Assembly (NCBI RefSeq): GCF_000005505.3
Contig: NC_016134.3
Location: 13,870,624 to 13,934,623 of the forward strand
Direction of reading: 5' to 3'
DNA from: Brachypodium distachyon
Lineage: Eukaryota; Streptophyta; Magnoliopsida; Poales; Poaceae
DNA: 64,000 nucleotides
The number at the start of each line of letters is the position of its first letter. The stretch's first letter is position 1. Position numbers and translations under genes: made by a program. Shown here piece by piece: positions 60,469 to 63,873 of this stretch. A model generated the notes under the pieces. That model made no database searches and was not told the origin of the DNA. It saw nothing but the letters and a program-made list of their open reading frames with translations.

Positions 60469-63400
60469 CTACCACCATATTCCATTATTATCAATGAAGT
60501 TTGGATGTGCTTCTATGGCTTCCTTCACCTGATCTGGTAGCCTGATACCATCATTAAACACCATTTCCTTCAACTTGGGAAGGTTGTTGATTCCCGATAG
60601 AGACTCCATCTGGTCGATGAGCCAGACGATCTTTTCAAGCTTAGGAGCTTCTCCAGTTTCGAAGTCGATGTCGGTGATGCCGCCGCCCTCAACAAGAAGA
60701 TACTTGAGATTTTGGAACCCATTGGTCTGGATTATAAGCTTGCTCTCAGAGTGTAATTTAACGTCCCGGAGCTTGAGGCCACGTAGGTTGGGCAAATCTG
60801 CGAGGGACTCCATATCATCCTGGTCCAACACGGTGTTATGAAGAGTTACCTTGGCAAGTTTGCGGCAGCCTCTAGCAAAGAATGGCAGAAGGCGCCCATA
60901 CATTGTGACTCCACTTATGCTCAGGCTTTCAAGAAGCTTGGGTGGGTTCTTACAATGTGCACTTATAGCATCGGCGTCAGGAGGAGTAGCAACAGCCTCA
61001 CTGGGAGGAAGAGGCTTGATCTCTATTGACAGAGACACAAGGCACTCATTCAGATCGCTGATCCCTTGGAGTAAGTTGTCAAGTTGAGCTTTCCAGTCAT
61101 AAATGACCACACCAAAAACCTTCAGTTGCCATAGCTGGCCAACCTCTCTCAGCTCGGTAGCATGATGTTTTGATGCCTGCACACGGGATAGCACTTCCAG
61201 GTCTGTCATTTTCCTGACCTTGTGAGGCATCATGACAGTGGAAAGTATGCTAGCATCACCACCACCAGTGTCATCAAAGCATGCACTTTGACCAGCCATG
61301 TCATCGGAGTATACACTTTGACCAGCCAGCAGACGCTTCAGCTTCAGTAGCATGAGGTGTTTTATGGCGGAGGCGTTCATAGGAGTCCGCCGGATGTCCA
61401 ACACCTCCAGCTGCTGCAGCCTGTTGATCTCCTTAGGCAGCTGAGTGACATCTGTGTTCCGCAGGCTCAGATACTTGAGCAGGATTAACAAGGTGCAGAC
61501 ATTCCTAAGCCATCGTTGGTTGTCTCTCAAGGATGCACAGCCTTCCAGATCCAGGACCTTGACGAGCTTTAATTGAGATGATGCATTGGATGGTTGCTTC
61601 AAGAAGTCGACGATGCTGTCCGAGGGACGGAGCCGGATGTTGCTGAGAATGGAGAAGTGGCGAGCCAAGTGCCGAGACAGGCGTGTGTCCAGAATGTGTT
61701 CTTTCTTGGCCATCTTGGTGATGAAGCTGTACACCAGTGGATGCAACGTGATGCTCTTCACCTTCCCTCCAGCATCAACGTCACTAGGACAGACAAGCCA
61801 TAGGTCGGCAAGAACATCAAAGCAACGCTCTGCCTGACCTACTGAACTTGACCAATCTTGTCTAGTTATCAGTCCTTCCGCAACCCACCGACCTATTAAC
61901 CTTGTCCGGATTATCTTCTCGTTTTTATGGAAGATGGCTAGATACAGCAAGCAGGTCTTGTAATCCCTAGGCAAGTCGTTGTAGGAGAACTTGATCATCT
62001 TGTACCCATTAGTTTCCACGGATCCCCCAAACACCAGGCTGTTGCTCAGCTTGTCGAGTTCTTCTCTGCGCCTCATTGGATTGGCAAACAGAGTATGGAT
62101 GAACATCTTTGTGCAGAACACATCCAGCCTGCACTTCTCCAAGATCTCATGAAAGATTTTGGCACTGTACTTGTCGTCGTCATTCACACGCCGATTTGTA
62201 AGTTGGAGCGCTGTATCGTGGTAGTGTTCAATTGAAGAGTACACGATAGGCTCCGTCCCATAGCAAAACTCGTTGGCACTTTGCATGTATTTGGTGGTAA
62301 CTACCACTGCCATTGAAGTGCAGCCCAAATCTTGCAAGGCCTTTGTGGTCTCTTCCCATTTGTAGCCATAGGCATTTTTTAGAATGATCAGTGTCCTTGT
62401 ACCCTGCAGATGCTTTCTAACCCTCCCTGCGGTTTCTTGAATCAACAGATGCTCTTTCATCCTCTTCAGCACTTGTTCAATCCTCTCCCTGCAGTACTCC
62501 TCATCTTCGCCTGGCGAGAGGGGCGATTCTTTGTCTGACTTATCTTGCTGAAGAAGTGACGTAATTGGCAGCAACTCCGGTTGGATCTGCACTTGAATCT
62601 TCAGCGTGATGTCTCTAATATTCTTCACGATATGATCCTCGCCCGGTTTATCCGTGGCTGCCTTCGCAGGTGCGGTGGCCTGCTTGGGAAGCAGCTCTTG
62701 CAGGATGGCTACAAATTCGGGATGATGCTCCTGGACACCAATCGTGCAGGCATCCTTTTCATCTGCTGATTCCACATATTTCTTCATCTTCTCCGCTGTG
62801 TCTTCAAGGATCGTCTTTTCCTGGGTTTGATCCTCGTCTGCAAGGATGGCGGCATCCTGGAGCAGCACCCGCAAGATGCCGCACAGTACCCCTATGGGTT
62901 CAACACGGTAACCTTTATTACCGGCTTTCTCCAGGTGCTCTTCAATCTTCTCCTCGATCTTCGAAATCTTCTCGTCAATTTCTTCCTCGACCATGCTGAT
63001 CGAGTCATGGACTTCTTCCTCGCCAGATTCCTCCGCTGATTCGCCATCCTCCAGAGCCTCCAGCATGTCACCAAGAAAATCCCTGGGTTCTTTCGGGCAA
63101 AACTGGTCCTCTAAAGTGAAAGCATGGTCGAACTTTTCCGTAACGGAATCATGACTCAGTGCTTCATCTATAAGATCGTTCCCATCCTCTTCATCCGGTG
63201 CTGCAATGGCGATGGCTTGGAACCGACCATCTTCATGTTGTCGCTCGAGCCAGTTCATTAGCGTCTCGGTGCACTTTAAACCAAAGCGAGGCTTTGAGAA
63301 GGCTAGCTCCCTTCGTGGATCATCGTTGGTCGCCCTGTAGTAGTCTTCTTCCAAGTCATGCTCTCCTTCAGCTATAACTCCGGCCGCAGCTTGAAACGCC

Positions 63401-63873
63401 TCCGTCGGCGACATCAGCAGCTTCTCGGAGTCCGCTGCCTTTGCTGGGACCTCGACGCCATACCTGAGCCGCCGCTCGCCAACGTCGCGTGCCCGGGCTT
63501 TGAGGTCGCGCAGCTGGTTCGCTGCGAGGTGCTGGGCCAGTGTCTTCTTCACGAACCAAGGCACCCACCAGACGTATCCCAGCAGGACCCCTCTGGCGCG
63601 GTACACCGCCGGATCACGGCGCCGCAGGTAGATGTCGATGCTGTTGCTGCAGTCGTGAGCGAGGTCGCGGACCTGCTTCATCCACGTGCTCACCTGCTCG
63701 TCGTGCTCCCCGCTGCGGGGAGTCTTCCTGGCGAGGTGCATCAGGAAGCTATTCATGCTCTCCATCTCCTCCTTGATGAACTGCACATCACCACCCACGC
63801 CACCCAGCAGCTGAGCCTCGTCACGGATGACGCTCAACAGTGAGCGGACCGCGCCCCCGGCGAGCTCAGCCAT
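60469..63873 (-). CDS. NLR-like protein, P-loop-less with acidic insert (copy 4, intact)
   Basis: One exon, 1134 aa. Start chosen at the ATG at 63873 (MAELAGGAVRS), which all four copies share; the frame opens nine bases earlier without an ATG. Domains: Rx-type coiled coil about 1-95 with DCSNSID (74-80) where EDVID is expected; linker to about 215; NB-ARC-like start where IAIAAPDEEDGND (221-233) stands in place of the GxGGxGKT P-loop; acidic, helical insert about 240-480 (ESGEEEVHDS, DEKISKIEEKIEEHLEKA); kinase-2-like RTLIILKN (493-500, acidic pair lost); RNBS-B-like AVVVTTK (522-528); RNBS-D CLLYLAIF (641-648) with RWVAEG (662-667); LHPLV at the MHD position (710-714); LRRs about 770-1130. 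Family role is intracellular immune sensing. Loss of nucleotide-binding motifs suggests a non-canonical mode; that is inference. Confidence 0.88.
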   Translation of the reverse strand: MAELAGGAVRSLLSVIRDEAQLLGGVGGDVQFIKEEMESMNSFLMHLARKTPRSGEHDEQVSTWMKQVRDLAHDCSNSIDIYLRRRDPAVYRARGVLLGYVWWVPWFVKKTLAQHLAANQLRDLKARARDVGERRLRYGVEVPAKAADSEKLLMSPTEAFQAAAGVIAEGEHDLEEDYYRATNDDPRRELAFSKPRFGLKCTETLMNWLERQHEDGRFQAIAIAAPDEEDGNDLIDEALSHDSVTEKFDHAFTLEDQFCPKEPRDFLGDMLEALEDGESAEESGEEEVHDSISMVEEEIDEKISKIEEKIEEHLEKAGNKGYRVEPIGVLCGILRVLLQDAAILADEDQTQEKTILEDTAEKMKKYVESADEKDACTIGVQEHHPEFVAILQELLPKQATAPAKAATDKPGEDHIVKNIRDITLKIQVQIQPELLPITSLLQQDKSDKESPLSPGEDEEYCRERIEQVLKRMKEHLLIQETAGRVRKHLQGTRTLIILKNAYGYKWEETTKALQDLGCTSMAVVVTTKYMQSANEFCYGTEPIVYSSIEHYHDTALQLTNRRVNDDDKYSAKIFHEILEKCRLDVFCTKMFIHTLFANPMRRREELDKLSNSLVFGGSVETNGYKMIKFSYNDLPRDYKTCLLYLAIFHKNEKIIRTRLIGRWVAEGLITRQDWSSSVGQAERCFDVLADLWLVCPSDVDAGGKVKSITLHPLVYSFITKMAKKEHILDTRLSRHLARHFSILSNIRLRPSDSIVDFLKQPSNASSQLKLVKVLDLEGCASLRDNQRWLRNVCTLLILLKYLSLRNTDVTQLPKEINRLQQLEVLDIRRTPMNASAIKHLMLLKLKRLLAGQSVYSDDMAGQSACFDDTGGGDASILSTVMMPHKVRKMTDLEVLSRVQASKHHATELREVGQLWQLKVFGVVIYDWKAQLDNLLQGISDLNECLVSLSIEIKPLPPSEAVATPPDADAISAHCKNPPKLLESLSISGVTMYGRLLPFFARGCRKLAKVTLHNTVLDQDDMESLADLPNLRGLKLRDVKLHSESKLIIQTNGFQNLKYLLVEGGGITDIDFETGEAPKLEKIVWLIDQMESLSGINNLPKLKEMVFNDGIRLPDQVKEAIEAHPNFIDNNGIWW

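Follow-up and report, generated by a model that had tools for sequence, protein, structure and literature searches.

Gene and domain layout

The window analysed here is a stretch of 64,000 nucleotides from Brachypodium distachyon (C5:13870624-13934623 in a genome of 271 Mb), in which four copies of an atypical nucleotide-binding leucine-rich repeat receptor (NLR) gene were located by tblastn. Only copy 4 is intact among the four. It encodes a coiled-coil NLR (CNL) whose nucleotide-binding (NB) part has no P-loop, and it is a new member of a P-loop-less kind of protein already known from rice Pb1. The protein runs from an Rx_N coiled coil through an NB-ARC remnant and a winged helix to leucine-rich repeats (LRRs), with the following features.

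60472..63873, minus strand: copy 4, an intact single-frame gene of 1134 amino acids with no internal stop (stop codon at 60469-60471)
63439..63873, minus strand: Rx_N-type coiled-coil domain, residues 1-145 (Pfam Rx_N match over 8-85, 62.1 bits)
63175..63216, minus strand: residues 220-233, AIAIAAPDEEDGND, with strand b1 retained and Walker A replaced (sequence, alignment and predicted model)
63037..63135, minus strand: RNBS-A-like strand and the next helix, residues 247-279 (alignment and model)
62425..63036, minus strand: helix-rich charged insert, residues 280-483, with a predicted local distance difference test score (pLDDT) below 50 at 398-453 (alignment and predicted model)
62374..62397, minus strand: RTLIILKN, residues 493-500, the kinase-2 (Walker B) strand, with KN (499-500) replacing DD (sequence and alignment)
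62101..62127, minus strand: LDVFCTKMF, residues 583-591, at the GLPL position (alignment)
61723..61935, minus strand: winged-helix domain with RNBS-D, residues 647-717 (Pfam WH_DRP, 32.9 bits)
61738..61746, minus strand: LHP where MHD is expected, residues 710-712 (sequence and alignment)
60553..61581, minus strand: LRR region, residues 765-1107 (Pfam LRR_14, 126.8 bits)

An unbroken frame spans the protein from coiled coil to LRRs, so that no missing exon needs to be invoked. The Rx_N, WH_DRP and LRR_14 matches all exceed their Pfam cut-offs, in agreement with a preliminary description of this DNA in which the winged-helix region with RNBS-D and the LRRs had been called well preserved, and the NB-ARC profile matches over positions 68-192 of 248 only, at 16.7 bits, under the cut-off of 23.5. 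The solved structures nearest in sequence are MLA13 (4.2e-30) and Sr35 (1.2e-26), with best stretches beginning at residues 484 and 488. These canonical grass CNLs resemble copy 4 in Rx_N, the winged helix with RNBS-D and the LRRs; they differ in having kept Walker A, DD, GLPL and MHD and in assembling into resistosomes that depend on ATP.

Within the coiled coil, residues 95-112 (63538-63591, minus strand) make up a Trp-rich hydrophobic stretch, in which W106 is invariant in 98 aligned proteins. Contact with a membrane or a partner is a possible role for it.

Loss of the nucleotide-switch motifs

At the P-loop position copy 4 reads IAIAAPDEEDGND (residues 221-233), and this replacement, the KN in place of DD at 493-500 and the Pro in place of the MHD aspartate are all present as first described. 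The features of canonical CNLs that are absent from copy 4 are Walker A (GxxxxGK[ST]) at NB strand 1, the kinase-2 acidic pair, MHD and an NB-ARC match at the gathering score. When aligned with its relatives, the former P-loop stretch has the same length as the strand, P-loop and helix of ordinary CNLs, and the P-loop therefore seems to have been overwritten rather than excised. Residues 190-730 were folded alone, since the alignment rows of the full model were mostly LRR proteins, and the NB-ARC fold is retained in the predicted model, with the NB strands present and neither the NB nor the helical subdomain deleted. With Walker A, the kinase-2 acidic pair, GLPL and the MHD aspartate lost, the motifs indicate that this NB-ARC is most likely unable to run the ADP/ATP cycle of ordinary NLRs. 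A canonical P-loop hidden elsewhere had been named as an observation that would speak against this; the pattern G..G.GKT occurs in none of the six frames of the whole window, weaker forms lying outside that scan, and the P-loop is also absent from P0002, the single accession-like protein examined.

The charged insert before kinase-2

Between the two NB motifs (alignment positions 272-493), copy 4 has 221 residues with a net charge of -24, and the same stretch has 39 residues in three insertless relatives, from which about 180 of the 221 are insert. The earlier estimate of some 240 acidic residues was thus right as to a long, net negative stretch and too high as to its length. Across 114 family rows the inter-motif stretch has a median length of 310.5 (39-544) and a median net charge of -10 (-80 to +8), so the insert is charged rather than acidic family-wide, and the supposition that grass relatives carry similar acidic inserts does not hold generally. 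In the distant family member L038 (C1:74991905-74996656) the insert region contains a long stretch rich in Q, D and K; L038 was considered as a member of the insert-bearing group, but the tree described below places it outside, so that it either has a separate insert or was loosely labelled.

The insert might have been derived from an intron, as ordinary grass CNLs have one just before kinase-2. Of the 14 canonical Brachypodium loci that were fetched, 13 have Walker A in a separate upstream frame, kinase-2 opens the next frame wherever both frames were printed, as an intron predicts, and the copy 4 frame is open through that point. However, the insert lies upstream of the helix preceding the intron site (IQETAGRVRKHLQGTR, then TLIIL), and hence not at the intron position, which makes an exonised intron a quite improbable source. 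Split NB-ARC matches in the same genome were also considered as P-loop-bearing, insert-carrying intermediates and rejected: the 14 fetched stretches look like ordinary genes, and their apparent intron before kinase-2 marks them as canonical CNLs.

Distribution across the grasses

A protein search with residues 1-500 found 189 proteins (best 120 of 189 listed) and one with an insertless relative, P0021, found 221 (best 120 of 221 listed), such searches scoring a candidate only if it has words in common with the query. The union of the two listings holds 138 proteins, the copy 4 protein (P0001) included, of which 127 are longer than 900 amino acids. All named species among the matches listed for residues 1-500 are grasses: Brachypodium, wheats, barley, oat, Lolium, Oryza, Leersia, Setaria, Sorghum, Zea, Eleusine, Phragmites, Stipagrostis, Aristida and others. 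Walker A is present at the NB site in none of the 127 listed family proteins longer than 900 amino acids, copy 4 included. Two Walker-like pattern matches in this set fall in inserts and not at the NB site; GVEVPGKS-type matches near residue 139 of several homologues stand at the end of the coiled coil, and GGGGGGET-like matches at 433-558 lie inside inserts by position, and neither kind was accepted as a P-loop.

In place of the P-loop the family has its own signature: the b1 stretch ends in Pro in 99 of 109 rows, followed by D or E in 67, and reads APD in 44, and the majority consensus of the GLPL region is PHEFCMKIF. PF00931 is absent from the precomputed domains of all of the best 120 of 189 proteins from the search with residues 1-500 which, together with the sub-threshold Pfam NB-ARC score of copy 4, means that NLR surveys based on NB-ARC are likely to miss these proteins. 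Shorter relatives (L048, L041 and L052) retain the coiled coil, winged helix and LRRs with much of the NB part missing, and many grass homologues of these are listed.

One listed protein, P0070 (UniProt E3WF10, 1296 amino acids, 'Resistant protein'), we take to be rice Pb1 (Panicle blast 1), as the name and length fit. It shares with copy 4 the coiled coil, a P-loop-less NB-ARC remnant, the charged insert, the winged helix, the LRRs and a clade, and differs in its separate branch, its greater length and, by eye, long Glu/Lys-rich runs in its insert. The family had been thought poorly described, which is not so for Pb1: passages in print give it as a known resistance protein without a P-loop (PMC3782705, PMC3478704), describe a naturally P-loop-less Pb1 family in rice with homologues in maize (PMC3478704), and list Pb1 among NLRs as having an NB-ARC that is strongly truncated and unmatched by Pfam (PMC8559963). 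A paper on barley Rphq2 mentions Pb1 in the reference list only (PMC4733143). In titles, openings of abstracts and passages, parts of the P-loop-less clade (the Pb1 family and the RXL orthologues discussed below) were found in print and a description of the clade as a whole was not, which is no proof that it is unpublished.

Phylogeny and order of events

Trees were built on the winged helix to LRR region only; a first tree was made without P0112 and the canonical L002, L003, L004, L008, L018 and L047, and a 60-row tree without P0179, P0219, P0225, P0234, P0175 and P0163. Copy 4 clusters with rice Pb1, and canonical CNLs from its own genome fall outside (inner group support 100/99); in the 60-row tree the family and its wider relatives are united in a single group that is separated from 11 canonical Brachypodium CNLs (100/100). 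The subclade of the window is sister to the group holding Pb1 and is not on Pb1's own branch.

The sister group of 13 insert-bearing rows consists of two insertless proteins, P0021 and P0026, in both of which APD is already present (support 100/99 for the 15; 100/96 for the 13). The simplest reading is that loss of the P-loop came before gain of the insert, so that the two, which had been presented as a single design, were probably separate events; alternatively, P0021 and P0026 may have lost an insert secondarily.

A further search with L048 (762 amino acids) found 295 proteins (best 120 of 295 listed, 119 of them new). Among the 119 new ones listed, 7 have the Walker A pattern (P0179, P0180, P0206, P0208, P0213, P0215 and P0239), in some already weak, and the former P-loop reads VAPD in P0190 and P0194 and VSPD in P0204 and P0209. 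In many of the others, RNBS-D comes too early to leave room for much of the NB part, which must therefore be missing; seven database rows of the tree were called NB-deleted by their length and an RNBS-D start at residue 264-316. A single loss of Walker A was rejected, as forcing the 43 Walker-less rows into one clade lowered the log-likelihood by 117 (approximately unbiased test, p-AU 2e-75), two cautions being that the tree had already been seen when the group was named and that LRR-containing alignments can mislead. Walker A was accordingly lost more than once, or lost and regained.

Cluster copies and selection

The other three copies in the window are as follows.

11816..15165, plus strand: copy 1, broken by a 25-bp deletion in the b1/APD stretch and a later stop
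47829..51262, minus strand: copy 2, in which a 1-bp deletion within the b1 stretch breaks the frame
35003..40562, minus strand: copy 3, a fragmented pseudogene recovered as tblastn pieces

That all four paralogues share one design is borne out insofar as it is legible in the broken copies 1 and 2, with the insert region visible in copy 3, though copy 4 alone carries it in an intact frame. Copies 1 and 2 break near the same b1/APD spot by different deletions, of 25 bp at 12470-12490 (plus strand) and of 1 bp at 50600-50610 (minus strand). By eye, copy 1 has a near-identical but intact counterpart in public data, P0002, which is probably the allele of another accession. Two further intact copies, L024 (C5:13816259-13819651) and L025 (C5:13806007-13809336), are found upstream of the window, at distances of 51 and 61 kb, and related genes occur elsewhere in the genome at C5:0.27-0.29 Mb, C5:5.74 Mb, C1:74.99 Mb and other places. 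Copy 4 and L025 share a near-identical tract at about residues 351-600, which is probably a sign of gene conversion.

The ratio of nonsynonymous to synonymous substitution (dN/dS; pairwise NG86) over the whole frame is 0.246, 0.35 and 0.381 among the three intact cluster copies, rather than near 1, and falls within 0.246-0.454 in 10 of 10 pairs of five cluster sequences (3 whole-frame; 7 after the break of copy 1 or 2). These values and the spread of the family across the grasses uphold the view that the design was inherited and selected, and is common to other grasses. In the coiled coil the ratio for copy 4 against L024 is 0.043.

A random draw of 40 of the 114 family rows gives mean pairwise identities of 0.74 for the coiled coil, 0.63 for the winged helix and 0.57 for the LRRs; the stretch from kinase-2 to GLPL has 0.52, and the former P-loop segment and the insert have 0.40 and 0.38. 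Among 13 ordinary Brachypodium CNLs the mean is 0.33 in the coiled coil and 0.51 in the P-loop segment, a contrast of pattern and not of level, as this set consists of paralogues of one genome and L017 is without part of its coiled coil. Constraint is reversed relative to ordinary CNLs: the coiled coil is the most constrained part and the former P-loop segment is among the least constrained.

Function and alternatives

Passages on rice Pb1 report that WRKY45 is bound in the nucleus by the Pb1 coiled coil and is thereby degraded more slowly, and that coiled-coil mutations which break the binding compromise resistance (PMC3801107, PMC5539066). The coiled coil is the most constrained part here too and, with this precedent, the best explanation of copy 4, held with rather more belief than doubt, would be a Pb1-type atypical CC-NB-LRR protein acting as an ATP-independent, coiled-coil-driven immune adaptor. 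The winged helix, the LRRs and the dead NB fold would form a scaffold that presents and restrains the conserved coiled coil, and the coiled coil would be the working part, binding and stabilising a partner in defence, for which a WRKY45-type transcription factor is the likeliest candidate, as for Pb1. By this analogy we infer that the Brachypodium protein acts as Pb1 does, with no nucleotide bound; the basis in the present analysis is its anatomy, its family, the loss of motifs, selection on the frame and the predicted fold.

Several points weigh against such an adaptor. The partner role of the coiled coil in the Brachypodium members is taken from analogy with Pb1, the window subclade is only sister to the group holding Pb1, so that the partner may differ, and Pb1 reads VHD where copy 4 reads LHP. 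Loss of nucleotide binding is deduced from motifs alone, and the identity contrast sets orthologues and paralogues of many species against paralogues of a single genome. Turnover in the cluster is fast, judging by the three broken copies among the four in the window. The dN/dS values carry no significance test, and they reach 0.96 and 1.19 over residues 146-290 in pairs with copy 1 (56-62 codons), 0.60 over the whole frame, 0.81 in the LRRs and 1.50 in the insert of the related pair L029-L035, and 2.0 in the insert for copy 4 against L025 (dS 0.017), this last ratio being meaningless given the gene-conversion-like tract.

The broken copies, the L029-L035 ratio of 0.60 and the fastest evolution being in the NB segment and insert would also be consistent with decaying pseudo-receptors, which lost their function with the P-loop and persist as relics. 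Such decay is quite improbable, as dN/dS is low in all 10 cluster pairs, the same altered motifs recur across grass genera, and long predicted proteins are found in many genera (these being protein entries, not gene structures).

It is also possible, if on balance unlikely, that copy 4 is one half of an NLR team, a P-loop-less executor or regulator in a hetero-complex with a switching, ATP-binding NLR. Wheat offers a tested precedent in passages on RXL and Pm5e, where the RXL coiled coil triggers cell death and the Pm5e coiled coil suppresses it, and where grass RXL orthologues have a broken NB-ARC and belong to an old head-to-head pair (PMC11933841). Compared by description, RXL and copy 4 are both CNLs without a usable NB domain in which the coiled coil is the likely working part, but RXL retains only the winged helix of NB-ARC and stands head-to-head with Pm5e, whereas copy 4 retains a predicted NB fold. 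The wider clade does include proteins with much of the NB part missing, and a conserved coiled coil is compatible with either model. Signalling without ATP and partnership with another NLR, both suggested in the preliminary description, are plausible roles. However, the window has no G..G.GKT pattern, and of the 127 NB-ARC matches in the genome (from 115 scored among 579 candidates, hence a lower bound) none is located on this chromosome at 9.90-15.31 Mb. Outside the cluster the nearest NLR-like match, among the matches listed, is about 1.0 Mb off (C5:12779188-12780621; 31% identity to P0001 over 625-1106), although a partner could be unlinked.

Beyond copy 4, the clade-wide pattern is the interesting part: an overwritten P-loop, reversed constraint, repeated loss, and an NB part missing in some members. 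A tentative reading, which we hold at somewhat below even confidence, is that a grass NLR lineage gave up the ATP switch by repeated loss of Walker A: in the Pb1 branch the NB fold, with conserved motifs of its own (APD where the P-loop was, EFCMKIF where GLPL was), would have become a docking surface with a fast-evolving charged arm, in another branch it would have been largely deleted, and the coiled coil would be the output. Textbook NLRs require nucleotide exchange to fire. If this reading is true, loss of the switch would be design and not decay. A selected grass lineage without switch motifs suggests that a durable immune function is possible without the switch. The lineage also offers a natural series for finding the working part, from Walker A intact, through replaced, to insert gained and NB largely missing, and is of interest for cereal breeding, as rice Pb1 gives broad resistance.

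Other features of the window

An intact MATH-BTB-BACK frame of 426 amino acids lies within the NLR cluster at 32049-33329 (minus strand). Between the NLR copies there are a Transposase_21 frame and pieces of pol genes, at 6513-8219 (plus strand), 1558-3614 (minus strand), 24990-27803 (plus strand) and 29683-30714 (minus strand); from their domain names, the pol pieces are presumably of the copia type.
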